Shown here piece after piece: positions 1,500 to 19,200 of a DNA stretch of 64,000 bases. The translations under genes were made by a program, and so were the position numbers. A model generated the notes under the pieces. That model searched no databases, was not told the DNA's origin, and worked only from the letters and a program-made list of their open reading frames with translations. The stretch spans positions 1 through 64,000 of the forward strand of contig CANRNL010000008.1 of NCBI GenBank assembly GCA_947631965.1. The letters are read 5' to 3'. Position 1 is the first letter of the stretch, and each line of letters starts with the position of its first letter. The stretch is from an uncultured Clostridia bacterium (GTDB lineage Bacteria; Bacillota; Clostridia; Monoglobales; Monoglobaceae).

Positions 1500-1538
1500 A
1501 AATTCGGGTGTATCGCGCTCGGCAAAATTGCGTTTTTA

Positions 1539-1620: not shown

Positions 1621-1634
1621 AAACCTATGATATT

Positions 1635-1675
1635 AAGAGATGTTTTCCGTTTTCTGCGGGGGCATCTCTTTTTAT
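1635..1675 (+). terminator. Terminator after rpsI, inside the element
   Basis: AAGAGATG (1635-1642) pairs with CATCTCTT (1663-1670) around a 20-nt loop, and T residues follow on the plus strand. It overlaps the end of the integrase gene. It can end rplM-rpsI transcription now that the native terminator has been displaced. Confidence 0.5.
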
Positions 1676-2721: not shown

Positions 2722-2787
2722 TTGTTTCGCCTCCTTTCATATCAGATTTATGATAAAGAGCTTTTGCTCATTATCGGCATTTTTTTA

Positions 2788-3309
2788 TTATTCCTTATCA
2801 TTCAGCGGACATTGAGCGTAATATGCGGTAGTTCTGTCCTGCCACTGCTCATACGCCGGGTATGTCAGCATTTGCTGTTCAAGATTTTCTCTCGCGTTTG
2901 CAAATTCTTCAAGCAGCAAACACAGCTGGGAGTTCATATCCGCGTTTTTGTCCTGTCCGTCAAATATAACGGAACAGCTCCACTTACCGTCAGTTTTCGG
3001 CTTTTTAACGTCGATATCAAACTTCACACCTGCTTTGCGTTCCAGTTTGAACAGAAACGTGCAGAAGTCGGCAATGCTGTCAAGATTAACTCCGTCCTGC
3101 TCATACCCTATTAAATAGTTGGCGGTGGTTTCCAGCTTGTCGGCGATCTCGTTGATCACCGAGATAGACACTTCGATCTCGCCGCTTTCATATTTTTGCA
3201 CGGTACGCAGAGATTTGCCTAAAAGATTTGCCAGATCCGTCTGATTGAGCTTTCTCATTTTGCGCATATTCCGTATGCGCAGTCCGATTTCTTTTGGGGA
3301 ATTTTTCAT
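2788..3309 (-). CDS. XRE-family (Cro/CI) transcriptional regulator
   Basis: The N-terminal helix-turn-helix is clear: GLRIRNMRKMRKLNQTDLAN then LGKSLRTVQKYESGEIEVS, typical of Cro/CI repressors. The C-terminal part of about 100 residues is unassigned. The ATG at 3309 follows AAGAGGTG; an in-frame GTG at 3318 overlaps that site and is less likely. It is divergent from the accessory and mobilization genes, and the intergenic region holds a symmetric operator candidate. It is probably the element's maintenance switch controlling int, excision and mobilization. This role is inferred from position. Confidence 0.85.
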   Translation of the reverse strand: MKNSPKEIGLRIRNMRKMRKLNQTDLANLLGKSLRTVQKYESGEIEVSISVINEIADKLETTANYLIGYEQDGVNLDSIADFCTFLFKLERKAGVKFDIDVKKPKTDGKWSCSVIFDGQDKNADMNSQLCLLLEEFANARENLEQQMLTYPAYEQWQDRTTAYYAQCPLNDKE

Positions 3310-3329
3310 GTCTGTCACCTCTTGAAAAT

Positions 3330-3358
3330 ATTATAACACAAACAATTGCGCATTGCAA
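3330..3358 (-). promoter_or_regulatory. Promoter of the XRE gene
   Basis: On the minus strand TTGCAA (3353-3358), a 17-bp spacer and TATAAT (3330-3335), close to the XRE start. Confidence 0.6.
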
Positions 3359-3402
3359 GTACGTAATTAAAAATATTTTAACATATTTATGATTAAAAGT
3401 GC

Positions 3403-3462
3403 TTGACAAATTGTGAAAACCGTGTATAATGGAATTATGAATTGATAATACACAATCAATTC
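3403..3462 (+). promoter_or_regulatory. Promoter plus symmetric operator for the mobilization genes
   Basis: TTGACA (3403-3408), 16 bp, TATAAT (3425-3430). Just downstream GAATTGAT (3439-3446) and ATCAATTC (3455-3462) form a perfect 8-bp inverted repeat with an 8-bp spacer. This is a good candidate operator for the divergent XRE protein. Confidence 0.65.
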
Positions 3463-3509
3463 GATTTTACTGATAGAACGAAAAAATAATTCGTAAAGGC
3501 GGTGATTTA

Positions 3510-3743
3510 TTGGAGCAAAAGATTTATGTGGAAATGCCAAAGTTTACCGGACGAAATGTGCCTGTTATAGAAATCGCAAAAGCGATCGGAAAAGACGCAC
3601 AGTATATCCGTATCGGCTTGCAGCAGGGGATACTAAACTTTGGCTATGCTATGAAAATGGGCGGTTCAAGAGAATACAGCTATTACTGCCCGGACAGAAA
3701 AGTTTGGGAAGAAACAGGATATTTTAAAGAATCCGAAAAGTAA
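3510..3743 (+). CDS. Small conserved element protein, possible excisionase-like
   Basis: A 77-aa protein starting at TTG (3510), 5 nt after a GGCGGTGA site. I do not recognise a named family. The middle (PVIEIAKAIGKDAQYIRIGL) reads like a helix-turn-helix, and the rest carries several aromatics (SYYCPDRKVW). Its place as the first gene divergent from the XRE repressor is where excision or regulatory factors usually sit in such elements. An excisionase-like role is inference only. Confidence 0.6.
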   Translation: MEQKIYVEMPKFTGRNVPVIEIAKAIGKDAQYIRIGLQQGILNFGYAMKMGGSREYSYYCPDRKVWEETGYFKESEK

Positions 3744-3754
3744 GGGGTATGTGA

Positions 3755-3958
3755 ATGGATCATGATGCTCTTGAGAAAAAGCTGACACAGGTGAAACACA
3801 GGCTTGAAGAGGCAGAGAAGCGAGATCGTGTGAAGCTGAGAAAATTGCGGACACGCAGGCTAATTCAAGAAGGCGCGATACTGGAAAAGGTCTTCCCAGG
3901 AATTGTGTCTATGGAGCTTGATGAACTGGAAAAGTATCTTTATGATATTTTGAGATAG
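3755..3958 (+). CDS. DUF3847-like small coiled-coil protein
   Basis: A 67-aa charged protein with an N-terminal heptad-like helix (LEKKLTQVKHRLEEAEKRDR) followed by KLRKLRTRRLIQEGAILEKV. This pattern of basic helix, RTHRLI-like motif and G-A-x-L/I-E matches my memory of DUF3847, a family often found just upstream of MobA/MobL relaxase genes in clostridial elements. An accessory mobilization role is likely but unproven. The start follows AAGGGGTATGTG. Confidence 0.65.
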   Translation: MDHDALEKKLTQVKHRLEEAEKRDRVKLRKLRTRRLIQEGAILEKVFPGIVSMELDELEKYLYDILR

Positions 3959-3970
3959 AACTGAAACTTT

Positions 3971-4370
3971 TTAAGCGTTCCGAGTATTCGGAGCGCTTAA
4001 ATATTCCCGAAGGGCGCACTTACTCACCACGTCGCAATTCGAGTCTTTGGCTCGCTTTTCCGCAAGCGGAAAAGACTTCGCCCGAGACGCGATTGCTCCT
4101 CTTTCCCACAAAGGCAAGCCTTTGCGGGAGCCCTGAGGCGTGGTGGTACTGCCGCCGTGCGGCGGCAGCCGTGCGCTCCTGCGGAGGGCGCGGATAATTC
4201 GCTTTGCGGATTATCCGTTCAGCCGAACGCGCTATTATGAAATAATAGCCGAGCGTTGCTTTCGCAGCGCATGACGGAATAATTCCGTCATGTTCGACTG
4301 ATTGCAAAAACTAATTACTTTAGTTTTTGCATATGGGCGCAGGCTGCCCATGTTCTTTTGGTAAAAGAAC
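3971..4370. repeat. Tandem array of about 13 distinct hairpins before the relaxase gene
   Basis: Consecutive inverted repeats fill this stretch: 3971-4000 (13-bp stem), 4055-4074, 4105-4128, 4149-4168, 4173-4191, 4192-4216 (11 bp), 4216-4229, 4231-4249, 4253-4270, 4270-4292 (10 bp), 4304-4330 (11 bp), 4333-4351 and 4352-4370. Loops are mostly 2-5 nt. CACCACG (4025-4031) also pairs with CGTGGTG (4139-4145), which would enclose several of them. There is no convincing coding frame. The position between the DUF3847-like gene and the relaxase makes it a candidate oriT region. Confidence 0.75.
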
Positions 4371-4408
4371 CAAAACTGCCCGTCGTCGAGCAGAAAGGAG
4401 TAATATTT

Positions 4409-6109
4409 ATAGCAATATATCACTTTGAAGCAAAAATAATAAGCCGAGGCAGCGGCCGCTCTGCTGCGGCTGCCGCGGCCTATGCGTCCTGTTCGCGGAT
4501 ATATAACGACTATGACGGTGTTCAACACGACTATACCCGTAAGCAGGGCTGTGTTTACAGTGAAGTATTCCTGCCTCCAAACGCACCGGAAGAATGGAAA
4601 GACCGCTCTGAATTGTGGAACGCAGTTGAAGCCGCCGAAAAATCCAAAGACAGCAGACTGGCTCGTGAGCTTATTGTTGCTTTGCCTATCGAGGTCGGTA
4701 TTGACGAATGGAAAGCAATACTTAAAGATTTTGTCCAAGAGCGGTGCGTAAGCAAGGGAATGTGCGCCGACGTGAATATCCATAACACCGACGGACACAA
4801 TCCTCATGCTCATATTTTGCTTACAGTAAGACCGCTTAACCAAAAAGGGAAATGGCAGGCTAAGACGCAAAAAGAATATTTATGCAAGCGCGGCGATGAG
4901 GAACGCGGATTTACCTCAGCCGAGTTTAAGACGGCGCAAGCCGACGGCTGGGAGAAGCAGTATCAATACAAGGTCGGCAAGAAGAAAATATATATGACGT
5001 CCTCCGAGGCTGAAGCGCAGAATTTAGAGCGAGTTTCCAAAAATCCGAAAAGCACACGCTTTGGCAGACAAAACCCGATATGCGCCGAGTGGAACAGTGA
5101 GGGGCAGATTCTAAAATGGCGCAAAGCATGGGAGAATGCGGTCAATAAATCTTTGGAGCAGAAAAATATTGACGCTCGTATCGACTGTCAGAGTTTTAAG
5201 GATAGAGACATTGACGAACAGCCGACAATTCACGAAGGAGTAACTGCCCGCATTATCGAGCAGCGCGGCGGTGTTTCGGAAAGATGTGAGATAAATCGGC
5301 AGATCAGGGCGGACAACAAACTTCTGCGCGAATTAAGAGCTCATGTTAAAAAGCTGACTGACGTACTAAAGAATACTGTACCGTCAATTGCGGCGCTGCT
5401 TGAAAACATACGCACGAGTTTGGTTATATTTAGGTATCGAATGAAGTTTAACTCTGTTCGGATCAAAGATATAGAACAGGATAAGAAGAAAATAGCACCG
5501 ATACTCAAAAGATATGACAAAATCAAATCCGAGATTAAACAAAAGAACTCTGAGCGCAAAAAGCTGCAAACCGAGAAAAAGTCCCTTGGCTCTGTACGGT
5601 TTGTAAAGCAAAATCAGCTTGAGCGCCGTATAGCCAAAGTCACTGAGGAAATCGAGGAGCTGGAAAGCGAGCGTAAATATTTACTTTCCGAATTTTATTG
5701 CCAAAATGAAACAGAAGTATCGGAACTGGAGAGACAAATCTCGGATAATGCGGCAATTCTTGAAAAACTAAACAGCATAAATTCGGATTTATCCGAGCGA
5801 TACAATACAGAAAAAGCACGTTATTTTGAAATCCAAAGCGACATACCGCAGGATGATAAAGTCGAAGTAAATTACGAGCGCCGAAACATCAGAGACAACG
5901 CTATGACCGAAGCCGTACATCGGCTAAAGAAAATTTACGGCAAGAAATATAATTATACCTTATTAAAACAATCCGAAACCGAAGTAAACCGCGAACTGAA
6001 TGTTTTGCAGCCGGACAAGTCAATTCGACAGAAACTGACCAAAGCCGAGCAAATTACTCAAAACAAGTCTGCGATCATTCCGAAGAAAACCAAAACCGTG
6101 GAACATTAG
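4409..6109 (+). CDS. mobL: MobA/MobL-family relaxase, start codon altered
   Basis: This relaxase would nick oriT and pilot the strand during mobilization. The N-terminal domain shows IYHFEAKIISRGSGRSAAAA, then the metal-binding HUH-type motif NIHNTDGHNPHAHILLTVRP. A long charged coiled-coil C-terminal half follows (565 aa from this point). Relatives begin M-A-I-Y-H. Here AAAGGAG (4394-4400) is followed 8 nt later by ATA GCA ATA TAT CAC, so the expected ATG reads ATA at 4409. The only upstream alternative, TTG at 4358, lies in a hairpin without a ribosome site. The frame is otherwise intact to 6109. Expression may therefore be weak or lost. Confidence 0.85.
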   Translation: MAIYHFEAKIISRGSGRSAAAAAAYASCSRIYNDYDGVQHDYTRKQGCVYSEVFLPPNAPEEWKDRSELWNAVEAAEKSKDSRLARELIVALPIEVGIDEWKAILKDFVQERCVSKGMCADVNIHNTDGHNPHAHILLTVRPLNQKGKWQAKTQKEYLCKRGDEERGFTSAEFKTAQADGWEKQYQYKVGKKKIYMTSSEAEAQNLERVSKNPKSTRFGRQNPICAEWNSEGQILKWRKAWENAVNKSLEQKNIDARIDCQSFKDRDIDEQPTIHEGVTARIIEQRGGVSERCEINRQIRADNKLLRELRAHVKKLTDVLKNTVPSIAALLENIRTSLVIFRYRMKFNSVRIKDIEQDKKKIAPILKRYDKIKSEIKQKNSERKKLQTEKKSLGSVRFVKQNQLERRIAKVTEEIEELESERKYLLSEFYCQNETEVSELERQISDNAAILEKLNSINSDLSERYNTEKARYFEIQSDIPQDDKVEVNYERRNIRDNAMTEAVHRLKKIYGKKYNYTLLKQSETEVNRELNVLQPDKSIRQKLTKAEQITQNKSAIIPKKTKTVEH

Positions 6110-6828: not shown

Positions 6829-6857
6829 TTGACATTCTTGAATATGCATGATATGAT
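6829..6857 (+). promoter_or_regulatory. Promoter of the restriction-modification cargo
   Basis: TTGACA (6829-6834), 17 bp, TATGAT (6852-6857), followed by AGGAGG (6872-6877) 8 nt before the first cargo ATG at 6886. Genes from here to 13045 run in one direction with short gaps or overlaps, so this may drive the whole cargo. Confidence 0.7.
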
Positions 6858-6885
6858 TATAATGTCATAATAGGAGGTCTTGAAT

Positions 6886-7065
6886 ATGTTTGATAATATA
6901 TTAACGGTCGCCCAAGCAGCCGAATATTTGAAGGTGTGTGAAAAGACGGTAAGAAGGCTTATAGCAAAGCAAGAGCTTGCAGCTTCAAAAGTCGGCAAAT
7001 CGTGGCGAATACAAAAAATTGACATAGATAAATATTTGAGTGAAACTCGCAATAAGCAGATATGA
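6886..7065 (+). CDS. Small helix-turn-helix protein (excisionase/MerR-like)
   Basis: The 59-aa protein is almost entirely one helix-turn-helix domain of the HTH_17 type: ILTVAQAAEYLKVCEKTVRR, then a wing GKSWRIQKIDIDKYL. Such proteins are excisionase-like or act as small regulators; this one may be a controller protein for the modification genes. Its stop overlaps the next start (ATGA at 7062-7065), which implies translational coupling with the methyltransferase. The ATG at 6886 is preferred over an in-frame TTG at 6880 because of AGGAGG spacing. Confidence 0.85.
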   Translation: MFDNILTVAQAAEYLKVCEKTVRRLIAKQELAASKVGKSWRIQKIDIDKYLSETRNKQI

Positions 7066-7817
7066 ATACGAGAATCTTTTATAAAGATGAAAATTCGGTT
7101 ATATTGCAAGGCGATATGTTATTTGATGAAAGGATATCAGAAAATCATATTGATTTGATTGTAACATCTCCGCCGTACAACGTTGGTAAAAACTATGGTA
7201 AGGCAAATGACAATTTGGAATTTGGTGATTATATACGTTTTACCTATAACTGGTTAAAAAAATGCTATGGTTGGGCTAAACCCGACGGACGTTTATGTAT
7301 GAACATTCCGATTGACACAGGTAAGGGCGTTCAAAGAAGTTTGGGCGCGGATATTACTTGCATAGCAAAAGATGTTGGCTGGAATTATCGTACAACAATA
7401 GTCTGGAACGAGGGTAATATCTCCAAAAATAGTGCGAGAGGCAGTTTTATGAGTGCAAGCTCACCACATGTAATAGCTCCCGCAGAATTGATTGTTGTTA
7501 TGTATAAAAAACAGTGGAAAAAAGCAAAAAGCGGAAAATCGGATATAACAAAAGAAGAATTTCTCGAATGGACAAACGGGCTATGGACTTTTTCGGGTGA
7601 AAGTAAAAAGAAAATCGGCCACCCTGCACCGTTTCCCGTAGAACTCCCGAAAAGGTGTATTAAGTTGTTTGGTTATATCGGTGATATAGTGTTGGATCCG
7701 TTCATGGGTAGTGGCACAACATTGGTAGCGGCAAAAATGTTAAATCGAAAATCAATAGGGATAGAAATATCCGATGAATTTTGTGAATTGGCATTTAGGA
7801 GAATTTTAAAATATTGA
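7062..7817 (+). CDS. Type II DNA methyltransferase, beta-class, TSPPY motif
   Basis: The 251-aa amino-methyltransferase has its catalytic motif TSPPYN at residues 35-40 and its AdoMet-binding motif DPFMGSGTT at 212-220. Catalytic before cofactor-binding is the beta-class order. TSPPY favours N4-cytosine methylation, though N6-adenine cannot be excluded. The target site is not readable from the sequence. It overlaps the upstream HTH gene by 4 bp and is followed 11 bp later by the Vsr-like gene, so the three form one expression unit. Confidence 0.9.
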   Translation: MNTRIFYKDENSVILQGDMLFDERISENHIDLIVTSPPYNVGKNYGKANDNLEFGDYIRFTYNWLKKCYGWAKPDGRLCMNIPIDTGKGVQRSLGADITCIAKDVGWNYRTTIVWNEGNISKNSARGSFMSASSPHVIAPAELIVVMYKKQWKKAKSGKSDITKEEFLEWTNGLWTFSGESKKKIGHPAPFPVELPKRCIKLFGYIGDIVLDPFMGSGTTLVAAKMLNRKSIGIEISDEFCELAFRRILKY

Positions 7818-7828
7818 GATGATATGTT

Positions 7829-8242
7829 ATGAAAAAAACGAAAGAGCAAATAAGTTTTAACATGAAACAGGTTAGAAATAAAGACTCTAAAATTGAACTT
7901 GCCTTAAGAAAAGAGTTATGGAGCAGAGGATTAAGATATCAAAAGAATGTAACGAATATATTCGGAAAACCCGACTTGGTGTTTAAGGGTCAAAAGGTAG
8001 CTGTATTTTGCGACAGTGAGTTTTGGCACGGATATAATTGGAACGAAAGAAAAAATGATTTTAAATCCAGACAAGATTTTTGGATACCGAAAATTGAACG
8101 TAACATGGAACGCGATAAAGAAGTTACCGCCGAATTGCAAAAGCAAGGCTGGACGGTGTTAAGATTTTGGGGTAAAGAGATAAAGAAAAACGTCAAAGAG
8201 TGTGCCGATATTATTGAGAAGACAGTGAGGACCGATAAATGA
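7829..8242 (+). CDS. vsr: Very short patch repair (Vsr-like) endonuclease
   Basis: Vsr enzymes nick at T:G mismatches created by deamination of 5-methylcytosine. The 137-aa protein follows the family order: QVRNKDSKIELALRKELWSR, then GKPDLVF with the likely catalytic Asp49, FCDSEFWHG with His67, and W-x-P-K-I-E-R-N-x-x-R-D-K-E followed by GWTVLRFW. A Vsr here fits protection of C5-methylated sites made by the HpaII-type enzyme two genes downstream. The gene overlaps the next start by 4 bp. Confidence 0.9.
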   Translation: MKKTKEQISFNMKQVRNKDSKIELALRKELWSRGLRYQKNVTNIFGKPDLVFKGQKVAVFCDSEFWHGYNWNERKNDFKSRQDFWIPKIERNMERDKEVTAELQKQGWTVLRFWGKEIKKNVKECADIIEKTVRTDK

Positions 8243-8742
8243 ATTGGATGTACTTCCCCAAGAATAAAAAAATACCGCCAAATCTCAAGCAGGTTGTTGA
8301 CATTTTTCGTGAATCGGAGGATTTAATATCATCCGATATGCATCAATTAAAAAGTGACGATGTATTAAACGTGATTAAACCGGAGATGGAAAAGATTGGT
8401 TATGCCGTTGAAAAAAGTAAGGCAAAAACAGATAAGGTGAGAATTCCGGTCATGTATGGTGAAAATGGTATTCCGGAATTATCCTTTGAGGCGGATGCGT
8501 ACAACGAAACAGAAAAAATTGTTGTAGAAGTCGAAGCCGGAAGAGCTGTTACCAACTACCAATTTTTAAAAGATTTTTACGAAGCATGTTGTATGGTGGA
8601 TGCCGATTATCTTTGTATTGCTGTTAGAAAAACATACAGAAAAAGTCCGGATTATAAAAAAGTATGTCAATTTTTTACCGGTATGTATATAAGTAATAGA
8701 TTTGATATTCCCCTCAAAGGAATTTTGATAATCGGCTATTAA
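8239..8742 (+). CDS. Putative PD-(D/E)XK restriction endonuclease subunit
   Basis: A 167-aa protein with the pattern FEADAY (Asp86) then KIVVEVEAGRA (Glu97, Glu99), compatible with a PD-(D/E)XK-type nuclease core. It ends LPLKGILIIGY. I recall similar proteins beside methyltransferases but cannot name the family. It overlaps vsr by 4 bp (ATGA) and precedes the HpaII fusion, so it is probably a restriction partner of the TSPPY methyltransferase. This assignment is inferred mainly from context. Confidence 0.65.
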   Translation: MNWMYFPKNKKIPPNLKQVVDIFRESEDLISSDMHQLKSDDVLNVIKPEMEKIGYAVEKSKAKTDKVRIPVMYGENGIPELSFEADAYNETEKIVVEVEAGRAVTNYQFLKDFYEACCMVDADYLCIAVRKTYRKSPDYKKVCQFFTGMYISNRFDIPLKGILIIGY

Positions 8743-8757
8743 GGAAGGAAAAATATT

Positions 8758-10953
8758 ATGGTTTACAAAATAATTGATTTATGTGCCGGCATAGGAGGAA
8801 TACGACGTGGATTTGAGTTGGCAAAAGGGTTTAAGAATGTCTTGTCGGCAGAAATAGATAAATATGCTTGTATGACATACGAGCATTTATACGGTGAAAA
8901 TCCGGAGAATGATATTACATCGGAAGAATTTAAGAAAAAGGTTGAGAATACGGAATATGATATTCTTTTGGCGGGATTCCCGTGTCAGGCGTTCAGTCGC
9001 GCGGGAAAACAGTTGGGTTTTCACGATAAAACGAGAGGTACATTGTTTTTTGATATTGCCGATATAATTAAAAGAACAAGACCGAAAGCGTTTATGCTTG
9101 AAAATGTTGATAATTTAATTACTCATAACAAAGGAGAAACATTTGATACTATAATAAGAACACTTACAGTAGAGTTGAATTACAAGGTTATCGGAGTAAC
9201 CGGAAATGACGGCGAAATTGAATATAATGCGAGGACTTTTGTGAGAAACTCACGGAATTTTGGCGTTCCACAAAACAGACCTCGCGTTTATATTGTGGGA
9301 TTTGACAGAGAATTTTGGGGAGATGAGGTAGATAATTTGCCGAATATACTCCCGGAAAAACGTAAAAATAAGATTTATAAAGACTTAAATGATTTACTTG
9401 AAATGAATGCCAAACCGGAGTTTTTCTTAGCTTCGGGATATGTTAAAACACTGGAGAGACACAAGGCACGGCACGAGTCTAAAGGTAATGGCTTTGGATA
9501 TAAGATAGTAAATTTGCCTGAGATTGAAAATCCGGTATCAAACGCTTTGCTGGCAACGGGAGGTTCGGGAAAAGAAAGAAATCTTGTCATTGATATGCGT
9601 GACGGAATAGCAGGTATACAATTGCCATCAAGAAAAACGCCGCTTAATGATAAAGGTATAAGAACAATGACACCGCGCGAATGGGGAAAGCTGCAAGGAT
9701 TTATAAATTATGGGTTTATAGATAAAGAAGGTAATGACACCTTCTCATTTCCCCCCAGAGTTGGCAAAGCACAGCAGTACAAACAGTTCGGAAATGCTGT
9801 AACTATTCCGGCGGTGGAGGAAATGGCAAAGTTTATTAAAAAATGCTTAAAGCAGTTGGAGGAAAACAAAAAAATGACAGGTAACAAAGGTGAATGGAGC
9901 GAGTTATATACATTATTTAAGTTGGCGGCTGACGGTAGACTATATGCCGCCGATGCTGATACAAACAAGATAGAAAGCATTTACTATGATATTTTAAAAA
10001 TTATCAGAAGTCAAAAAGATGATACTTGGCAGTATATAAGAAACGGAAATATTAAGATTATAGCCGAAAGTACGGGTGCGAAAATTGCTGAAATTCCGAT
10101 TTCGGAGTTTAAGAATAACGCGGAGATACTTTTATCTTCAATAAAGGCGGTTAACAGTAAAAAAGGTTCTTTTGAAGTGCCGGCTATCGAAAGTTTCGTC
10201 AGCAAAATAAAATGCAATACTACAAAAGCAAAGTCTTCCGATAAATCTGACATTACACTTATGGTACATGATGTAAAAACAGGAAGTGATCCAACATTGG
10301 GTTTCAGTATAAAATCACAACTTGGAAGTCCGTCAACATTGTTTAATGCTTCCGGGGCAACAAATTTTGTGTATGAATTAAGTGGTCATATTTTAACCGA
10401 GAGCGAAAAAGATACGTTCCATAATTTTAAACTGTTTAAGGATAAGTTTGGCTATCTTGATTCTTTGGGAGTTAATGTATCTTTTGTAGAACCCGATAAT
10501 GATGTTTTTAACTCAAATATGATGTTGGTCGATACCAAAATGCCATTTATAATCGGAGAAATGCTTGAGAGCTTTTATAGAGGAAAAGCTAACCGAGTTG
10601 TTGATTTGACCGCTTTATGTGCGACACGCAATGTTTGTAATGTAAGCAGTCACAACAAAGATATTTTCTATGCATACAAGATAAAAGAGCTTATGACAAA
10701 TATAGCCCTTGGTATGATGCCTGCATCGCCATGGAATGGCAATTACGAAGCGACCGGTGGATATATAATAGTTAAAGAGGACGGAGATGTTTTATGTTAT
10801 CATATTTATAACAGGAATGAGTTTAGAGAATATTTGTTCAATAATACAAAGTTTGACACGCCGAGCAAAACAAAGCATCATTTTGGCGTGATTGAAGAAT
10901 CAGAAGGTAAACAGATTTTGAAATTGAATTTACAGATAAGATTTATAAAATAA
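8758..10953 (+). CDS. HpaII-type C5-methyltransferase fused to HpaII-type endonuclease
   Basis: This is a single-chain restriction-modification enzyme. Residues 1-365 are a complete C5-cytosine methyltransferase: IDLCAGIGGIRRGF (motif I), GFPCQAFS with catalytic Cys76, ENVDNL (115-120), QNRPRVYIVGF, a target-recognition region of about 190-300, and KQFGNAVTIP. From residue 373 (MTGNKGEWSELYTLFKLAAD) to 731 the sequence matches the HpaII endonuclease family, with SDITLMVHD (Asp498) and GFSIKSQLGS (Lys519). The expected target is CCGG. An internal GGAGG (9858-9862) precedes the ATG at 9874, exactly at the domain boundary, so a free endonuclease may also be made. Neither domain looks broken. Confidence 0.88.
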   Translation: MVYKIIDLCAGIGGIRRGFELAKGFKNVLSAEIDKYACMTYEHLYGENPENDITSEEFKKKVENTEYDILLAGFPCQAFSRAGKQLGFHDKTRGTLFFDIADIIKRTRPKAFMLENVDNLITHNKGETFDTIIRTLTVELNYKVIGVTGNDGEIEYNARTFVRNSRNFGVPQNRPRVYIVGFDREFWGDEVDNLPNILPEKRKNKIYKDLNDLLEMNAKPEFFLASGYVKTLERHKARHESKGNGFGYKIVNLPEIENPVSNALLATGGSGKERNLVIDMRDGIAGIQLPSRKTPLNDKGIRTMTPREWGKLQGFINYGFIDKEGNDTFSFPPRVGKAQQYKQFGNAVTIPAVEEMAKFIKKCLKQLEENKKMTGNKGEWSELYTLFKLAADGRLYAADADTNKIESIYYDILKIIRSQKDDTWQYIRNGNIKIIAESTGAKIAEIPISEFKNNAEILLSSIKAVNSKKGSFEVPAIESFVSKIKCNTTKAKSSDKSDITLMVHDVKTGSDPTLGFSIKSQLGSPSTLFNASGATNFVYELSGHILTESEKDTFHNFKLFKDKFGYLDSLGVNVSFVEPDNDVFNSNMMLVDTKMPFIIGEMLESFYRGKANRVVDLTALCATRNVCNVSSHNKDIFYAYKIKELMTNIALGMMPASPWNGNYEATGGYIIVKEDGDVLCYHIYNRNEFREYLFNNTKFDTPSKTKHHFGVIEESEGKQILKLNLQIRFIK

Positions 10954-10967
10954 TAGAGGAGATTTTT

Positions 10968-11558
10968 ATGCTAAAAGATATAGGAGTTATTAAAAAAAGA
11001 AGTAAAACATCAGATATTTTTGATGAATATTGCTGGAGATTTTATAGCATAGAATGTACGCCATCGGAGTATATAAGATTTTGCCAAGATGCATATACAA
11101 ACAACTTTACGCAAAGAAATAATTCTTTGAACGGAAAAATGTTTGAATTGATGATTGCTTCACTATGTGTGAAAGAAAATATCAAACCGATTTTCCTGCA
11201 AGCATCAGTAGCCTTTGTGCCTAATGTAGAATATGATGCCATATTATATTCGCAGGAACAATCTCCGATAAGTTTAAGCATGAAAACCAGTTTGCGCGAA
11301 AGATACAAACAAGCTGATTTAGAAGCTATAGCATTAAAATATGTACATAGGAAAGCGGAAAGCTATCTTTTGTCTTTAGACGAAAATGAAGTAAGGGATG
11401 TAAAAAATAAAATATTAAGCGGTAGCGTGTTGGGAATAAACAATGTTTTATGTGCCACATCCGGAGAGTTTGATGAATTTGTATATCGGTTGAGAGAACA
11501 AACTTTTATAAAACCTGAGAAAATTGAAGTAATAACAGCGAAAAATGTAGTTGAATAA
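10968..11558 (+). CDS. Predicted PD-(D/E)XK nuclease, orphan
   Basis: I do not recognise a named family. The 196-aa protein has Glu60 (NGKMFELM), Asp90 (VEYDAIL) and S-x-K with Lys106 (ISLSMKTSLRERYKQADLEA). That spacing fits a PD-(D/E)XK nuclease core and resembles type II endonucleases with a K-T-S-x-R-E-R motif. It has its own AGGAG site and lies 14 bp after the HpaII fusion. It may cut the site of the TSPPY methyltransferase or be an independent defence nuclease. Function is inferred from motifs only. Confidence 0.6.
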   Translation: MLKDIGVIKKRSKTSDIFDEYCWRFYSIECTPSEYIRFCQDAYTNNFTQRNNSLNGKMFELMIASLCVKENIKPIFLQASVAFVPNVEYDAILYSQEQSPISLSMKTSLRERYKQADLEAIALKYVHRKAESYLLSLDENEVRDVKNKILSGSVLGINNVLCATSGEFDEFVYRLREQTFIKPEKIEVITAKNVVE

Positions 11559-11577: not shown

Positions 11578-12576
11578 ATGGCTAAAAATAAAGTCGCTAA
11601 GGTTTCCAGAAAAATATACTTTTATAAGGTTGTTTCTTATCTTAATGGTGAAGAAATATCTTTAAAAAAAATATTTGATATTTACATAAAACAGCTTGGC
11701 AATAATTATAGCAATTTAGAACAAAGAAATTTGGCAATTCCTCACTATGATAAATATCATTTTCTTGAAGTAGAAAAACATAGCACAGATTCAAATATAT
11801 ATAAAGGTAAGTTTTATAGTTTGCGATTATCGGATTTTCCGTATCTGTTTAATATGCAAGATGGAAGTAGGCAAGAAATTTCGTCCCAAGATTCAGACAC
11901 TTTAATGGAACAAACTCATTTTTATTGTTTTACAAATAAAAGATTGATTGTGAGTGAATATAACTTTTTTGGAGCCAGAATTGAACAACTTGCAACATAT
12001 TTGAAAAAAGTAATGGTTTCGTTACGTCCGAGTGAAACATTGGAAATATCGATAAATCCGATAGTAATACCTGAATATTTTAAGAAAATTTTAAATTGTA
12101 CTTCAATATCAAAGTTCCAATTTAAGGTTGGAGCACCCGGATTGAAATTATTAAAAGACCGCAAAATAATTGATTTTACAGATATAGCAAAAGATAATAT
12201 TGTGCCACAAAGTGAATTTTATGTGGATATAGAGATTTCTGGGGGCAATCGAAAACCACTGAAAATTCAAAATACAAAAAATATTTTAAAAAGAATAGTC
12301 GATGCTATCAGAAAGGCAAATGATATTGACAGATCAAATCCGGATGGCAATAACAATATATTTCGAAAAGCAAAAGTGCGTGCATATAATCCGGATGAGG
12401 GAAAAATTTTGCCTTACGATCTACTTGATGAGAAATTGGTGCATAATTGCTATGTTGAAAAAGTATCTAATAAGACTAAGTATGTAAATTCTGAGATTAT
12501 GTTTGATAAAATTATGGAAGCGTATCGTTTAAAAAAAGATGATGCATTAGCATATATGGAGCAAATAGATGATTAA
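11578..12576 (+). CDS. Unassigned soluble protein of a two-gene module
   Basis: A 332-aa protein of no firm family. The N-terminal half reads KIYFYKVVSYLNGEEI..., then GKFYSLRLSDFPYLF and EQTHFYCFTNKRLIVSEYN; the C-terminal half is charged and predicted soluble. There is a faint resemblance to proteins annotated as DUF6731, which I hold with low confidence. It has a strong GGAGGAGG site and overlaps the next gene, a membrane protein, by 8 bp. Soluble plus small membrane protein next to restriction genes suggests a phage-defence module, but no enzymatic motif is evident. Confidence 0.6.
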   Translation: MAKNKVAKVSRKIYFYKVVSYLNGEEISLKKIFDIYIKQLGNNYSNLEQRNLAIPHYDKYHFLEVEKHSTDSNIYKGKFYSLRLSDFPYLFNMQDGSRQEISSQDSDTLMEQTHFYCFTNKRLIVSEYNFFGARIEQLATYLKKVMVSLRPSETLEISINPIVIPEYFKKILNCTSISKFQFKVGAPGLKLLKDRKIIDFTDIAKDNIVPQSEFYVDIEISGGNRKPLKIQNTKNILKRIVDAIRKANDIDRSNPDGNNNIFRKAKVRAYNPDEGKILPYDLLDEKLVHNCYVEKVSNKTKYVNSEIMFDKIMEAYRLKKDDALAYMEQIDD

Positions 12577-13045
12577 AAAGATTTATAATAAACTATATGG
12601 GACGCATTGGCTATTTATGCATTTGATTGTTATAGCTATTTTTAATATACTTATAATATTGCTATTTAGTTATCTTGGCACTATAGACAATGTTTTTAAA
12701 TTAATAAATTATGACATAATAAATTTGTCCGGTATAATAGCGGGATTTGAGTTTGCGGGATTAAGTATTTTTATATCTTTGGAAGGTAATAAAAAGATAC
12801 AGATTTTAAAAGATATCGATTGTGACCGAGTTATATATCAAATCATTATATATTCTGTGCTATTTCTTGTTGTATCAATTATTCTTATGGTTATAGATAT
12901 AAATATATTTAATTTAATAGATTCAACAAATATACTATACACTATATTAAAACGATTTGTAGACGTTGTATCAATTATAGCGTTGGAGTTAGGATATATG
13001 TTATTTATATCAAGTATAAAACTCTTATCTTGGATATTAAAATGA
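12569..13045 (+). CDS. Four-helix membrane protein of the two-gene module
   Basis: The 158-aa protein has four hydrophobic segments, at about residues 16-38, 47-70, 88-110 and 130-156. Short loops lie between them (for example SLEGNKKIQILKDIDCD), and there is no signal peptide. It starts inside the end of the 332-aa gene (8-bp overlap), so the two are translationally coupled and probably act together. Small four-helix partners occur in several membrane-acting anti-phage systems, such as KwaA of Kiwa. Gene order and sequence do not let me assign it to any of them. Confidence 0.65.
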   Translation: MIKKIYNKLYGTHWLFMHLIVIAIFNILIILLFSYLGTIDNVFKLINYDIINLSGIIAGFEFAGLSIFISLEGNKKIQILKDIDCDRVIYQIIIYSVLFLVVSIILMVIDINIFNLIDSTNILYTILKRFVDVVSIIALELGYMLFISSIKLLSWILK

Positions 13046-13084
13046 TTTTAGAACAGTTTGATTAAAAATCATAAAAGATACTAA

Positions 13085-13381
13085 TCAAAGCTAAAAGATT
13101 TTAAAAGACTATATCCAATTATTTTAAAGAAATGGGTTATATATAAATGGGCAGAAGACGGATTTATGTTAAAAAAGATAGCTTCAAACAACAACGATTT
13201 TGATGCAATTATATCTATAATTGAAAATACCAAAGGATGGGTGCTAAGAGCAGTCATTGCAGAGCTTATTATGTATTTGAAAGTTGAAACGCATTTGTCA
13301 CAGTTATCTACACAATCATCTTTTGGCGATAAATTTATTGTTGAGTTTCTGATTATATATCTTAGGCAGCACTTGGAATAA
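13085..13381 (+). pseudogene. Possible gene fragment, no start
   Basis: An open frame of about 98 codons ends at TAA 13379-13381. It has no start codon before an internal ATG at 13166. The translated text (WVIYKWAEDGFMLKKIASNN, then ENTKGWVLRAVIAEL) looks protein-like, but I recognise no family. A second frame continues over the junction to about 13591. This may be a decayed remnant at the right edge of the cargo. Confidence 0.3.
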
Positions 13382-13622
13382 AAGGTTTTGGCGAGCGCGG
13401 ATTGTACAGAATATATTAGTTTTTGAAACTTACAAGGATGATGAATTTGTGTCAGCGTTGGTGACACAAATCAAACGGACAAATCACCTGTTTATAATGT
13501 CAAAATGGACGCCTGCTTTCTCGGCAAAATATATTTTCAAAAAGGATTTTGCATGGATTTTTGGCAAAAATAACGCTCTCGCGGCGGGGTGAGATGTTCT
13601 CGGCGCGGGAGCGGGTCGGTCG

Positions 13623-13663
13623 GTATGCAGCAGGTATGTAACGGTTTTGCTTCGAAAACTGCG
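13623..13663. repeat. Right-end integrase arm-site candidates
   Basis: GTATGCAGCAGGTATGTAAC (13623-13642) matches 1600-1619 at 18 of 20 positions in direct orientation. CTTCGAAAACTGCG (13650-13663) is the exact reverse complement of 1539-1552. Both lie just inside the right end of the element. Confidence 0.5.
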
Positions 13664-13691
13664 CAGGTTCGCGGATTTGGGAGCGGCGGTG

Positions 13692-13706
13692 TTCTCAAAG
13701 AGATAA
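13692..13706 (+). other. attR-type junction: displaced native rpsI 3' end
   Basis: TTC TCA AAG AGA TAA encodes F-S-K-R-stop, like the end of rpsI but with a different Ser codon. It is followed 19 bp later by a strong terminator. This is the expected remnant of the original rpsI end after an element brought its own replacement 3' end. Confidence 0.7.
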
Positions 13707-13725
13707 ATTTTTACACAGAATTACG

Positions 13726-13760
13726 AAAAACCCCGTAGCCTTGCGGCTTTCGGGGTTTTT
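13726..13760 (+). terminator. Displaced native terminator of rplM-rpsI
   Basis: AAAAACCCCG (13726-13735) pairs with CGGGGTTTTT (13751-13760), with an inner AGCC/GGCT stem and a T5 tail. No plus-strand gene directly precedes it apart from the rpsI-end remnant. Confidence 0.8.
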
Positions 13761-13842
13761 GTGTAGGGCGATGTTGCTGTGCGTTTGATGGAGGTTAATT
13801 TAAAATAAATCAATTTATGAGAAAGAAAACCTTGAAAAACAG

Positions 13843-13871
13843 TTGACACACCCTATTGAATAGGGTATAAT
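13843..13871 (+). promoter_or_regulatory. Toxin-antitoxin promoter with embedded palindrome
   Basis: TTGACA (13843-13848), 17 bp, TATAAT (13866-13871). The spacer carries a perfect 17-bp palindrome, ACCCTATT-G-AATAGGGT (13850-13866), whose end overlaps the -10 box. This fits autorepression by the helix-turn-helix antitoxin encoded in the operon. Confidence 0.8.
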
Positions 13872-13895
13872 GATGTTGAAATAAGGTGATACTAT

Positions 13896-14228
13896 TTGAA
13901 AAGGAAATTTGTTATGATGCCTGTTTTTGATAAACAGTGGCGGAATATGGGACTTGACGACAACGATTTACAAAGTTTGCAGGTCGAATTGTTAAACAAC
14001 CCTCAAATAGGAAACGTTATCAAAGGTACGGGGAAACTGCGGAAAATGCGTTTTGCCCTGCCAAACAAAGGCAAAAGCGGCTCAAGCCGCGTGCTCTATG
14101 TCGATTTTGTTTTGGCGGAAACTATTTATTTAATTTTCGCATATCCTAAAAATGAAAAAGATGATTTAACCGATGAGGAACGAAACAACATTAAAAAGAT
14201 GATTGATAAACTGGAACAAAGTTTGTAA
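13896..14228 (+). CDS. RelE/HigB-type toxin
   Basis: The 110-aa basic protein has the RelE/ParE-fold pattern of HigB-type mRNA interferases: an N-terminal strand-helix, KLRKMRFALPNKGKSGSSRV, then VDFVLAETIYLIFAYPKNEKDDLTDEERN. It starts at TTG 13896 after AAGGTGAT. The toxin gene comes first and the antitoxin follows 15 bp later, the order typical of HigBA. It lies just outside the right end of the rpsI element, so it is chromosomal or belongs to another insertion. Confidence 0.85.
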   Translation: MKRKFVMMPVFDKQWRNMGLDDNDLQSLQVELLNNPQIGNVIKGTGKLRKMRFALPNKGKSGSSRVLYVDFVLAETIYLIFAYPKNEKDDLTDEERNNIKKMIDKLEQSL

Positions 14229-14243
14229 CGGGAGGTGCTTTCT

Positions 14244-14555
14244 GTGAAAGTTTATGACGGAATTATGCAGGGATTGGAAGAAGCCGTTGCATATAATAAG
14301 GGAAAAATCAAAGCTAGAACAACTACAATGTCCATCGAACCCGTCCCCGATTTTGAGGCAAAAGAAATCAAAAGCATACGAAACGAGCTCGGAATGACGC
14401 AGGTTTTGTTTGCCGGATTTATGGGCGTTTCCCCAAAAACGGTTGAGGCGTGGGAAGCGGGAAGAAATATGCCGGACGGTCCGGCAAGGCGAATACTTGC
14501 GATGTTGAAAGTCGATCCGTCGCTTCCGCAAAGATTAAGCATTATTACAAAATAA
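14244..14555 (+). CDS. HigA-type helix-turn-helix antitoxin
   Basis: The 103-aa protein has a C-terminal XRE-like helix-turn-helix: IKSIRNELGMTQVLFAGFMG followed by VSPKTVEAWEAGRNMPDGPA. It should neutralise the upstream toxin and repress the operon through the palindrome in its promoter. The GTG at 14244 follows GGGAGGTG at good spacing; an earlier in-frame GTG at 14235 lies within that site. Identification as an antitoxin rests on domain plus gene order. Confidence 0.85.
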   Translation: MKVYDGIMQGLEEAVAYNKGKIKARTTTMSIEPVPDFEAKEIKSIRNELGMTQVLFAGFMGVSPKTVEAWEAGRNMPDGPARRILAMLKVDPSLPQRLSIITK

Positions 14556-14571
14556 ACGTATATACCTGTTT

Positions 14572-14666
14572 CAAGAGCAACACACCCGTGTTGCTCTTTT
14601 GTTGATTTTTTGCGGCGGATATGGTATGATCTTTCCATAATCAAACAAATTGACAAATCGGATTTT
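14572..14666 (+). repeat. Terminator-promoter unit, copy 1
   Basis: AAGAGCAACAC...GTGTTGCTCTTTT is a terminator for the toxin-antitoxin operon. It is followed by TTGATT (14602-14607), 17 bp and TATGAT (14625-14630), a promoter for the YoaK-like gene. The whole unit matches 15555-15650 over about 95 bp at roughly 80 percent identity by eye. Confidence 0.65.
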
Positions 14667-14752
14667 TGCCATAAGCTTCACGCAACAAACCTTGCGGCGA
14701 AAAAACCGGCAACCCGAAACTCAATAATGTTAAATAAGGAATGAATTTAGAC

Positions 14753-15487
14753 ATGGAAGATAAGAAAACGGGAAATAATTCGTATTATCTTATGTGTGAG
14801 AGAAAAGAAATTTATCATATTTTAATGGTTGTAGCCGGATTCTTCGGAGCATACACCTTTTTGCTCCGAGGTAATGTATTCTGCAATGCCCAGACAGGGA
14901 ATGTAGTGCTGATGGGTATGGCTTTGGGCGCGGGAAAATGGAGAGATGCGTTGTATTATCTGATACCGATTTTTGCCTATATGCTCGGCGCCTTTGTATC
15001 TGAGCTTCTTCCCAATCCGGTTAAACATCATCTTCCTGTCCGTTGGGACACCCTGCTGATTGCGATAGAGATGCTGGCAGTGCTGGCTCTGGGATTTGTT
15101 CCCTTGTCAGCACCCGTTCAAATTGCTCAGGTTACAATTAATTTTGTTGCTTCCATGCAGTACAATACCTTTCGTCAGGCAGAGGGCGTACCGATGGCAA
15201 CAACATTTGCCACGAATCATATCAGGCAGATTGGAATAGGTTTGGCAAAAGAGATTGCGCATTTTCGTCTGCAGGATAAAACGCATCGAAAGAAATTACG
15301 AGAACACCTTGCTATGCTGATGTTTTTCCTCGCGGGAGCCGTAATAGGAACGCTTCTGTGTAATTCGGCAGATGAAAAGGCTATTTGGGCGACCCTGCTT
15401 CCGCTTGGCATTTTGCTTGGCGTATTTCTCTATGCGGATTTTGTCGGAGAAAAGGCTTTGAAGGAAAGGAAACCGGCAGGGCATTGA
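14753..15487 (+). CDS. YoaK/DUF1275-family membrane protein
   Basis: A polytopic membrane protein of 244 aa with about six hydrophobic segments and the DUF1275 (YoaK) landmark GFFGAYTFLLRGNVFCNAQTGN followed by VVLMGMALG. Later it shows FRQAEGVPMATTFATNHIRQ. The family function is not established; a transporter role has been suggested. ATG 14753 is preferred because AAGGA lies 12 bp upstream; the in-frame ATG at 14741 is too close to it. It sits between two copies of the terminator-promoter unit as a single-gene transcript. Confidence 0.85.
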   Translation: MEDKKTGNNSYYLMCERKEIYHILMVVAGFFGAYTFLLRGNVFCNAQTGNVVLMGMALGAGKWRDALYYLIPIFAYMLGAFVSELLPNPVKHHLPVRWDTLLIAIEMLAVLALGFVPLSAPVQIAQVTINFVASMQYNTFRQAEGVPMATTFATNHIRQIGIGLAKEIAHFRLQDKTHRKKLREHLAMLMFFLAGAVIGTLLCNSADEKAIWATLLPLGILLGVFLYADFVGEKALKERKPAGH

Positions 15488-15554
15488 GTCAAACGTATAA
15501 ATTAGGAAAGCCGCGCATCCCCGTTTGTCACATGGTTAAGCCTTAATAACACCG

Positions 15555-15650
15555 CCAAGAGCAACCCTTCGGCTACTCTTTTATTGATTTTCTGCGGCGA
15601 ATATGATATGATTATTTCCATAATTAAGCAGAGCGATAAATCGGATTTGT
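15555..15650 (+). repeat. Terminator-promoter unit, copy 2
   Basis: AAGAGCAACCC...GGCTACTCTTTT is a weaker hairpin than in copy 1, followed by TTGATT (15584-15589), 17 bp and TATGAT (15607-15612). Upstream, CCCGTTTGTCA-x-x-x-GGTTAA at about 15518 has a counterpart at about 16090 after the next gene. Confidence 0.6.
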
Positions 15651-15663
15651 ACAGGAGGATTGT

Positions 15664-16086
15664 ATGATAAAAAGAAAACAAGTTGTATTAACATCGTTTG
15701 CGGTGTTGATAATTGTTGTCGCAGTAATTTTTGGGGTATGGTATTCTATCCCAAAATCCTTTTTGAATGGATTAGATGTGTCCGAAGTAGCATCTATCTC
15801 TGCATTTGATGGTAATACAGGCAAAGGCTTTATTATTGAGGATTTTAGAGAAATAAAACAAATAATAGAAAACATCCAGGAAAGTGAGATGAAACGAGAT
15901 AATATCTCCATAGGTTATAGTGGATATGGTTTCAGAATGCGCTTTATGGGTAAAAACGAAAAGGTAATTGACAGTTTTATTATCAACAGTCCATATACTA
16001 TTCGTGACGACCCATTCTTTTATCAGTGTGATGGAAGTTTGTGCTTTGACTATCTAAAAGAACTTGAAGATATATACGCAAGATAA
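15664..16086 (+). CDS. Small membrane-anchored protein, unknown
   Basis: A 140-aa protein with a basic start and one N-terminal hydrophobic helix (residues 9-27, LTSFAVLIIVVAVIFGVWYS), probably an uncleaved anchor. An extracellular domain of about 110 residues follows (EVASISAFDGNTGKGFIIED, YSGYGFRMRF, DPFFYQCDGSLCFDYLKELE). No cysteine lipobox is seen. I do not recognise the family. It has a GGAGGATTGT start site and its own promoter in the preceding repeat unit. Confidence 0.65.
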   Translation: MIKRKQVVLTSFAVLIIVVAVIFGVWYSIPKSFLNGLDVSEVASISAFDGNTGKGFIIEDFREIKQIIENIQESEMKRDNISIGYSGYGFRMRFMGKNEKVIDSFIINSPYTIRDDPFFYQCDGSLCFDYLKELEDIYAR

Positions 16087-16126
16087 CTTCCCGTTTGTCA
16101 AACAGTTAAAAACTAAACACCAAAAT

Positions 16127-16157
16127 CAAGAGCAATCGAAAAACGGTTGCTCTTTTT
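16127..16157 (+). terminator. Terminator after the anchored protein
   Basis: AGAGCAA and TTGCTCT pair around CGAAAAACGG, followed by a T5 run. It is the same hairpin type as in the two upstream units. Confidence 0.65.
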
Positions 16158-16177
16158 CGTTGCCTAAAAAATCAACA

Positions 16178-16209
16178 AAAGGAGCCGCGCAAAAGTGCAC
16201 GGCTCCTTT
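16178..16209 (-). terminator. Terminator of the GH3 gene
   Basis: AAAGGAGCCG (16178-16187) pairs with CGGCTCCTTT (16200-16209). It lies just past the stop of the minus-strand GH3 gene. Confidence 0.6.
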
Positions 16210-16241
16210 AAACTTTCAATTCCCTGTTTGATTTTTATTTT

Positions 16242-19200
16242 CTATTTTATTTTATTTATACTTCCAAGGTTGTACACCTTTGTATAGCCGAGGCGCTCCG
16301 CGACTTTCATCGCCTTTGCGGAACGCAGACCCGACGCACAGTAAACGATTATCGTATCGTCCTTCGACTGCTCCGAAAGCCAGCCCTCGAACTCGTCAAA
16401 CGGCACGTTCAGCGAGCCTTCATAGTTCACCGCCGCAAACTCCGCCGCGCTTCGCAAGTCAACCAGCTTGGCACCCTCCGCCGCAAGTGCGAGAGCAGCC
16501 TCCGCCTCGATGTCGTCCTGCCTTACATCGGACAAATCCACGGTCTGCTCCGACCCGCCGCCCGTCAAAACGAGCTTGCCGTCGTCGGACGATATGCTCT
16601 CTATATCAAAATCGCATACCTTTTTGAGCGTCGCGCACTTGGAGCAAGGCGGCATTGTTATGAGCCAGCCGTCCTTACAGCCGAGGTACATCTGGTCGTC
16701 CACCGCGCAAATATCGGTCACCGAAGGCTTGCTCGGCGCGCCCTCGTCGCTCTCCGCGAAATATTCGGGAGTCATATCCGACCAGACCGTGCCTGCCGCG
16801 CTTGTAAATATGCTCGTGCTTCCGTCGCCCAAATCGCACACGAGCGCGGCAATCATATCGTTCCAATTCGTCAGCTTTTTAAACGTCACGTTTTTGTCGT
16901 ATTCCGAATTAAAGCTGATAGTCTTTGTCTCGCCGCCGAACTTGTCAACCGCTGTTATTTCGTCGCCCGAAACGCTCACCTGCGCCAAATCGTTCTCGGC
17001 AAAAAGCGTCTCCGCGGAGCTTGCCGACGACGTGCCTCCGCCATTGGTGTAGGTAAACTGCATATAGTCAATGTTGCCGCAATACTTTCCGTCGGTGTTC
17101 AGTTTAACGAACAGTCCGAGACTTCCGCTCTTGCTGAAGCGTATCGGATGGTCGTAATAAGTGTTCCAATTCTTATCCGCAATAAGCGTAACCTTGCCGA
17201 TGCTGTTTTCCGAGGTCAGCAGCTTGCCTATATCTGTCGCGGTCGCCGTATCGACATCAACCGACGAAACATCTACCGCGAAAAATTCCGCCGTCGCCGT
17301 ACCCGCATCGTTTCTTATCGCCGCGTGCAGGCTTATTTCAGCCAAATTATTCATATCGCGTGGTCCGAAATAGAATATGTCGCCGTCTCTTGTGTTTTCC
17401 ACAATATTGCCGGTCGTCGTCGCCTCTTTCGCCCACTTCTTTGCACAGCTCTCAAACTCTACTTTATACTGCGTCATAATGTCCGCAGGGTCAAACGGTT
17501 CAAATGTCTGTGCCGGAGGAGGTGTTGGCTCCTCGGTCTTTTCGGGAGGAGGAGTTGGCTCGGTTCCCGACTTGCCCGCCTCAAACAGCACGGCATACAA
17601 ATTCTTGTTGGAGCCTCCGCCGTAAACATATACGGGTATTCCGCCCTTTACGTTCATCTGAACGCCGCATATGGTGTTGTCGCCGTACTTGGATACCGTT
17701 TTGCCGTCCTGCTCTATATTCATATATCTGTCATCGCCCGCTTTAAACACGGCTGTAACCACGCCGTCGGCGTCGGGCGTGAACCAAACTCTGCGCGCTC
17801 CGGGCTCGCCTTTGCCGCCTTTCAGGCTTCGGGTAAAGTTGTATGTTCTGCCGCCGTAGCTGAATGTGCCGCCCTTGTCGGACTGCCAGCCGCCGTCGCC
17901 GTCCATTCCGAGACCGCTGGAGAGCTTCGCTCCCTCGGCGGTGTTAAAGAACGAATCGAATACCGAGTCGCTGAAGTTGTAAACCAAAAGCTCTTTGGGT
18001 TCGGCTATCTCATATGTCAGCTCTATCGGGGCTGTAAGGGGGTTCATAATGTCGAGTCCGTTCCATGTGAGGATTTTTATCTTGTCGCCTGCCGCAAATC
18101 CGCCGAAGTCGTACCTGCCCGCCGACGCAAATTCCTTTGCCTCGCCCTTTGTAATCTTGTCGTCGCCGTCATAAGCCGCCGCCAAAACCGCGCTCTTATC
18201 GTATGCGACCGATACGCCGACCTTGCCGCCGGGCGCAACCACCGTGTAAACATCGTCGGTGTTGTACTTCAGCTTCATATAGTCGAGGTTTGATTTGTTG
18301 GTCTGAACAAAAATCGTGCCGCAGCCGTTTTCATCAAGGGACAGTCGCGCAAGCTCCTGCTCGTTTACCTGCGCGGTCACCTCTGCCCAGTTCGTCCACG
18401 CGCCTGTTATGGGCGCGCTCGTAGTTGCAACTATCCAGTCGCTGTTGCCCATAAGAGATACTTTTATGGGAGCGGACGTGTCCTTTTGAGATACGCGGAA
18501 GGTGATTTCGGTCAGTCTGTCGAGCTTCACGCCGTCGAAACGCAGCCAGTAAGCGTTTGTGTTGCCCGCGTTTTTGCCGCCGCCCGACGCACCCTCTTTA
18601 ACGTCGTCGAGCTTCGCGCCGCCGCTTGCGTCCGCGCTCTCGCCCTCTATCTGGAGATTTGCGTAAATCGTCGCCGAGCCGCTCTTTCCGTTTGCGTAAT
18701 CGTTTGCGGTGACTTTAAATATGCCGTTTTCGTAGAGCTTCAGCACACCGCTGTTTATATCTATCTCCGCGTCTCGTCGTGCCGCCGAGCCGTCAAGCTG
18801 TTCCACAGACCATACGATGTTTGAGTCAACCTTTGCGCCGCCGCTCAAAGCCTCAAGCTCAACGGTACACGGATTGTCAACCGTAAAGGTGCCGCTTATC
18901 GAGGTCGTGTCCGCCTTGTACTCTCCTATGCCTTCCGCAGAATAATCTATCACGCCGCCAACAAGCACGTTCGGATTTACCGAAGCGATGGTGTATGCCT
19001 CAGTCAGCGAGATTTTGGGTACCGCCTTGATTTCTTCGACCGCTTTCGCAACGTCTACCGAAAGAGTACCCTCTATTGCCGCGTTCTCTATCTTCTCGTG
19101 CATTTCGCTATATATGCTGTTTATGAGCGCCCAATCCTCTGCGGTGTACGCCTCTTCAACACAGCCCTTATATGCCGCTTCGAGCATACCGAGATACTCG

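Follow-up and report, generated by a model that had tools for sequence, protein, structure and literature searches.

The last two genes of a restriction operon carried by a mobilizable element, here called P332 and P158, probably form a two-gene RexAB-type phage-exclusion (abortive-infection) module, with P332 as a putative DNA-binding infection sensor and P158 as a putative membrane effector. They lie in the 64,000-nucleotide stretch of DNA analyzed here (the window), where a first-pass annotation had singled them out as an unassigned soluble-plus-membrane pair and a candidate new anti-phage module. Support for a RexAB-type module comes from the invariant pairing and order of the two genes, the co-variation of their products, the homology of the first product to lambda RexA, its four-helix partner, and the linkage to phages, mobile elements, and restriction genes.

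Both reading frames are present with the 8-bp overlap originally described (Table 1), and hydropathy analysis agreed with the topology assigned to each product. P332 has zero membrane segments, as befits a soluble protein, while the four helices of P158 were located at residues 15-33, 53-71, 93-111, and 130-148. Basic residues at the N-terminus of P158 and in the loop joining helices 2 and 3 suggest, by the positive-inside rule, a cytoplasmic location for this loop and for both termini.

Table 1. Coordinates of the gene pair and of the surrounding operon and mobile element in the window
Feature	Position	Strand	Remarks
rpsI, ribosomal gene	1104-1499		Neighbor of the tyrosine integrase
Tyrosine integrase	1672-2721	-	Adjoins rpsI; left end of the element
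HTH regulator	2788-3318	-	Left end of the element
MobQ-family relaxase of the mobile element	4358-6109	+	Family match
Sigma-70-like promoter, TTGACA-17-TATGAT	6829-6857	+	Consensus match only; ahead of the 6880-7065 gene and the operon
Short DNA-binding gene, excisionase type	6880-7065	+	Precedes the operon
Genes upstream of P332 in the operon	7062-11558	+	Five genes, from the methylase to the 196-aa gene
N6/N4 DNA methylase, first operon gene	7062 (start)	+	Clear family match
Vsr mismatch endonuclease	7829-8242	+	Clear match; between the N6/N4 methylase and the HpaII fusion region
167-aa gene of the restriction operon	8239-8742	+	Endonuclease families below cut-off or no match
HpaII methylase-endonuclease fusion	8758 (start)	+	Certain
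196-aa gene, weakly BsaWI-like	10968 (start)	+	Endonuclease families below cut-off or no match
P332, RexA-like soluble protein (predicted), DUF6731 family	11578-12576	+	ORF, 332 aa, ATG start
Codon R268 of P332, aligned with RexA R219 (DNA contact)	12379-12381	+	hhalign map, joint alignment
P158, four-helix membrane protein	12569-13045	+	ORF, 158 aa, ATG start; RexB-like by position, size, and topology
P158 codons 59-86, end of helix 2 and central loop (GFEFAGLSIFISLEGNKKIQILKDIDCD)	12743-12826	+	Most conserved stretch

The pair ends a cargo of seven + strand genes that starts at 7062 and has gaps of -8 to +20 bp, which agrees with the one-direction arrangement noted before. The proposed mobile setting also held: a tyrosine integrase beside rpsI, a MobQ relaxase, and an excisionase-type DNA-binding gene support a mobilizable element integrated just downstream of rpsI (window 1104-6109). 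No attachment-site repeats of at least 12 bp were found between positions 1381-1700 and 12901-16300, so the right end of the element could not be fixed within the latter interval. The count of three restriction systems in the cargo proved generous. The HpaII fusion is certain and the N6/N4 methylase and Vsr genes are clear, but for the 167-aa and 196-aa genes, matches to endonuclease families fell short of the cut-off or were absent, and only one restriction system of the window operon is certain. Beyond the operon, a RelE-type toxin and HTH antitoxin-like gene pair lies on the + strand at 13896-14555, with a perfect TTGACA-17-TATAAT promoter ahead of it at 13843-13871.

Direct scans of P332 and P158 against Pfam, NCBIfam, PHROGs, and PADLOC returned nothing above any cut-off, and P332 itself had no DUF6731 match in the Pfam scan. 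Its orthologues L002 and L003 pass the 27-bit cut-off of DUF6731 (Pfam PF20505), with 30.0 and 30.4 bits, respectively, and since P332 aligns with both over its full length (60% identity to L002 and 53% to L003), sequence comparison places it in this family through them. The PADLOC candidate model PDC-M67A also gave a partial match to P332 (E 2e-4). Other searches contributed little: tblastn with P332 found no match in plasmids and only a Geoglobus virus in phages, neither P332 nor P158-type alignments detected anything in viral contigs, and a PDB sequence search using profiles of both proteins yielded no credible match.

Comparison with lambda RexA called for the wider family. P332 did not match PF15969 or the PADLOC RexA models at E <= 1 and is consequently filed only as a remote branch, not as a lambda-type RexA, although its relative L045 matched the PADLOC RexA model in part (E 0.0035). 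An alignment of the three-member P332 subfamily showed no similarity to RexA either; the case for P332 thus runs through more distant members, and profiles of 16 and 22 sequences were built. Lambda RexA alone matched the 16-member profile at E 7.7e-5, while hhalign of the 22-member profile against four RexA proteins gave Prob 95.9 and E 6.2e-9 over 258 columns, which is nearly full length. In null tests, 96 unrelated proteins of similar length scored at most 20.1 versus 64.9 for the four RexA proteins, and 60 shuffled RexA sequences scored at most 26.3 versus 44.8 for RexA alone. The lambda CI repressor gave nothing.

Structure prediction, which covered six rows, returned the same protein. The AlphaFold model of P332 is of low confidence (mean pLDDT 46.5), and its top Foldseek match in the PDB was RexA (8TWQ, E 1.8e-5, prob 1.00), ahead of CENP-N and RdgC. 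For the relative L047, whose model is better (pLDDT 72.9), RexA again came first (E 9.6e-8), followed by RdgC (6.4e-4) and the CENP-N family. Because the RexA fold is common to RdgC and the yeast kinetochore proteins IML3/CHL4, which are CENP-N relatives (PMC11077077), this list of matches is internally consistent. TM-scores were low (0.28-0.45, with an rmsd of 17 A), partly because the domains are oriented differently, and such values are to be expected for a protein with two domains that move against each other and for models of limited confidence. The RexA double substitution R219A/K221A abolishes DNA binding (PMC11077077); these residues align with R268 and Y270 of P332, which keeps only the first of the two basic residues, and at least one of the two positions is basic in all 22 members of the profile. 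Profile-profile comparison and predicted structure both identify DUF6731 as distantly homologous to lambda RexA, and P332 is predicted to carry the RexA-fold (RdgC-like, two-domain) component. No paper naming DUF6731 or PDC-M67 was found in the literature searched; subscription journals and preprints were outside its scope, so an earlier DUF6731-Rex link may exist; within these limits, the connection to RexA is new.

To follow the pair across genomes, DUF6731 was searched in the phylum, selected clades, phages, plasmids, and viral contigs, and the matches, together with the window and its two orthologues, make up 25 distinct loci. Each has, directly after the DUF6731 gene and on the same strand, a gene for a 147-200-aa protein with three to four predicted helices, an arrangement shared by 0 of 320 other neighboring gene pairs in the same loci. 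Where the first gene is intact (22 loci), the two genes are spaced by -17 to +46 bp. With order and spacing repeated in 25 loci, the P332/P158 pair cannot be put down to chance open reading frames. In the remaining three loci, the first gene is disrupted: a TnpB-like transposon gene interrupts it in L020 (6777-9050), where the membrane partner is intact, while it lies in two pieces in L021 and has an internal stop in L038. Moreover, the pairwise similarities of the soluble proteins correlate with those of the membrane proteins (r 0.81), and still do so when close relatives are left out (r 0.69), values that none of 2000 permutations reached in either case.

The nearest relatives follow the same pattern. 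L002, a Ruminococcus MAG contig, encodes 334-aa and 161-aa homologues (60% and 42% identical) with a 4-bp overlap, and a genome of the same genus (L003/L009) encodes a pair of 335 and 163 aa; among 51 genomes of the order, two carry P332 and the membrane protein together, and the others have neither. One further candidate, L043, was rejected as a DUF6731 member: its match is below cut-off, spans 64 residues of an LEA-like protein, and has no membrane partner. The checks that the first-pass annotation had proposed, on co-occurrence across genomes and on mobile or defense neighbors, both came out in its favor. The pair is invariable and sits on mobile elements, often beside restriction systems, and none of the contrary signs that it had named (a housekeeping match, rare co-occurrence, or a lack of defense and mobile neighbors) was found.

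The 25 loci lie in Bacillota prophages, phages, a plasmid, restriction islands, and an archaeal virus. Five are in or beside restriction systems, namely, the window, L002, L009, a Niallia plasmid, and L042. The pair follows a cytosine methylase and an Eco47II endonuclease in L002, a cytosine methylase and an EcoO109I-type endonuclease in L003/L009, and hsdS-hsdR in L042, and it directly precedes hsdM-hsdS-hsdR on the Niallia plasmid. The Eco47II-type endonuclease of L002 (L002:329-1038) is apparently truncated, with 150 aa covering positions 1-130 of a 202-position profile; the pair next to it is intact. At least 12 loci belong to phages or prophages, where the pair mostly sits immediately ahead of the small terminase gene or behind the lysis genes. 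L045 has it beside a serine integrase, and an Acetoanaerobium phage has it between repressor and integrase, a placement similar to that of lambda rexAB beside cI. The only archaeal pair seen is gp18/gp19 of Geoglobus ahangari pleomorphic virus 1 (L011:5998-7462), in a pleolipovirus-type genome. A weak match to the DUF6731 family was also noted in Methanocaldococcus jannaschii. In L041 (3274-5353), the pair is followed on the same strand by a P-loop (GPNGYGKST) ATPase gene and a 282-aa gene that is DUF4435/TOPRIM-like by eye, possibly a further defense module. Gene names in the L042 and L041 neighborhoods and around the prophage loci come from reading translations.

The membrane proteins share the motif GF..T..SILLS at the end of helix 2. 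Codons 59-86 of P158 hold 15 of the 40 columns that are invariant among three P158 orthologues. The central loop of Sbash gp31 likewise holds invariant residues, and the substitutions R70A and D73A there abolish defense (PMC6426596); by analogy, the loop of P158 may be the equivalent of this region. Comparison of the P158 family with RexB by hhalign gave E 0.012 and a score of 20.5, with an alignment that is collinear at helix 2 and the following loop. Since unrelated membrane proteins scored up to 17.3, barely less, the alignment is only suggestive of homology to RexB. Weak matches of the P158-family profile to ion transporters (E 0.01) were taken as generic helix similarity, and this assignment was rejected.

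In lambda, Sbash, CarolAnn, and Pseudomonas putida, the RexA-like protein serves as the sensor for a membrane-protein effector, and the outcome is depolarization or membrane damage and growth arrest (PMC12894663, PMC6426596). The homology of the first component and the identical layout make this sensor-to-membrane logic the best explanation for the window pair as well. In this scheme, P332, with its predicted RexA/RdgC fold, would reside in the cytoplasm, probably as a dimer, and is likely to recognize DNA or DNA-protein complexes that arise in the course of infection. It would then act on P158 through the conserved central cytoplasmic loop of the latter. P158 would in turn open or damage the membrane, and this damage would stop growth and abort the infection. 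DNA sensing, activation of the membrane protein, depolarization, and protection of the host and the resident element are all inferred by analogy with lambda, Sbash, CarolAnn, and P. putida RexAB. The position of the pair behind restriction genes suggests a second line of defense. A bolder and rather doubtful extension is that DUF6731 and its partner are the main, ancient branch of Rex, with members in Bacillota and an archaeal virus, and also serve as a backup to restriction-modification by sensing restricted or replicating phage DNA.

The two proteins could also act with opposite polarity, the soluble RexA-like protein being antiviral and the membrane protein holding P332 at the membrane until infection releases it. 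Butters gp30/gp31 shows the same soluble-plus-four-helix layout with those roles (PMC7542560; discussed in PMC12894663), and the P332 and P158 sequences are compatible with either polarity. The strong conservation of the central loop fits both, but the membrane protein is the effector in four of the five described Rex systems (PMC12894663), and we regard the Butters polarity as unlikely. Less likely still is a non-defense regulator, in which the RexA-like protein would bias a lysogeny or maintenance switch and the membrane protein would anchor or titrate it. In lambda, RexA biases the CI/Cro switch without needing RexB (PMC11077077), and in one phage the pair is flanked by repressor and integrase. 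However, many copies are far from repressors, near terminase or lysis genes or in restriction operons, and since such sites have no lysogeny switch, a role in one is doubtful.

Superinfection exclusion at entry, with the membrane protein blocking DNA injection and the soluble protein helping, would agree with the accessory positions of the pairs in prophages and with the fact that Sie proteins are typically small, multi-helix membrane proteins. We nevertheless hold it to be very improbable: RexAB-like Sbash leaves adsorption, injection, and early transcription unimpeded (PMC6426596), and a partner with a predicted DNA-binding fold at every locus points to sensing after entry. A Kiwa-like system has hardly any standing: Kiwa combines a small four-helix membrane protein, KwaA, with soluble KwaB (DUF4868), and the sizes and topology are similar to those of the pair, but the gene order is reversed, no KwaA or KwaB model matched at E <= 1 (PADLOC, Pfam), and Kiwa is absent from the 50 best PDB matches listed, a set that may lack Kiwa structures, so the resemblance to Kiwa drawn in the first-pass annotation gives way to the structural match with lambda RexA and RdgC.

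Lambda Rex has been known for seventy years, and its trigger and effector step are still unsettled. A link between DUF6731 and RexA would offer many diverged systems for comparative and genetic work, bring Bacillota, an archaeal virus, and restriction islands within the range of the RexAB type, and turn "hypothetical" DUF6731 proteins of phages into testable defense candidates. Five RexAB-like systems have been described by a 2026 count (PMC12894663). DUF6731 is a family of uncharacterized function. Lambda RexA/RexB (PF15969, PF15968; 8TWQ) has the same gene order, with a soluble protein of about 280-330 aa and then a four-helix protein of about 150 aa. P332 is about 50 aa longer than lambda RexA and too distant in sequence for RexA models, P158 is not recognizably homologous to RexB, and lambda rexAB lies behind cI, whereas the window pair lies in a restriction operon on a mobilizable element. 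RexABpp of the P. putida prophage P1 is likewise a two-gene operon for a RexA-like DNA-binding protein and a four-helix protein whose activation damages the membrane; it is prophage-borne in a proteobacterium and is likened here by description (PMC12894663). Sbash gp30/gp31 and CarolAnn gp44/gp43 (DUF4747 type), also likened by description, pair a cytoplasmic with a four-helix protein whose central cytoplasmic loop is conserved and essential, but they come from actinobacteriophages and have larger RexA-like proteins of 370-372 aa (PMC6426596). Butters gp30/gp31 is likewise a soluble and four-helix pair in a prophage, except that there the effector is the soluble protein, which its membrane partner dampens (PMC7542560). 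Taken together, these comparisons leave the soluble-plus-membrane pair standing as previously unassigned, but not the notion of an altogether new module, as PADLOC PDC-M67A already touches the family and P332 is a remote RexA homologue; for the latter reason, the DUF6731 pair is a new, diverged, and widespread branch of the known RexAB type and not a new kind of system.
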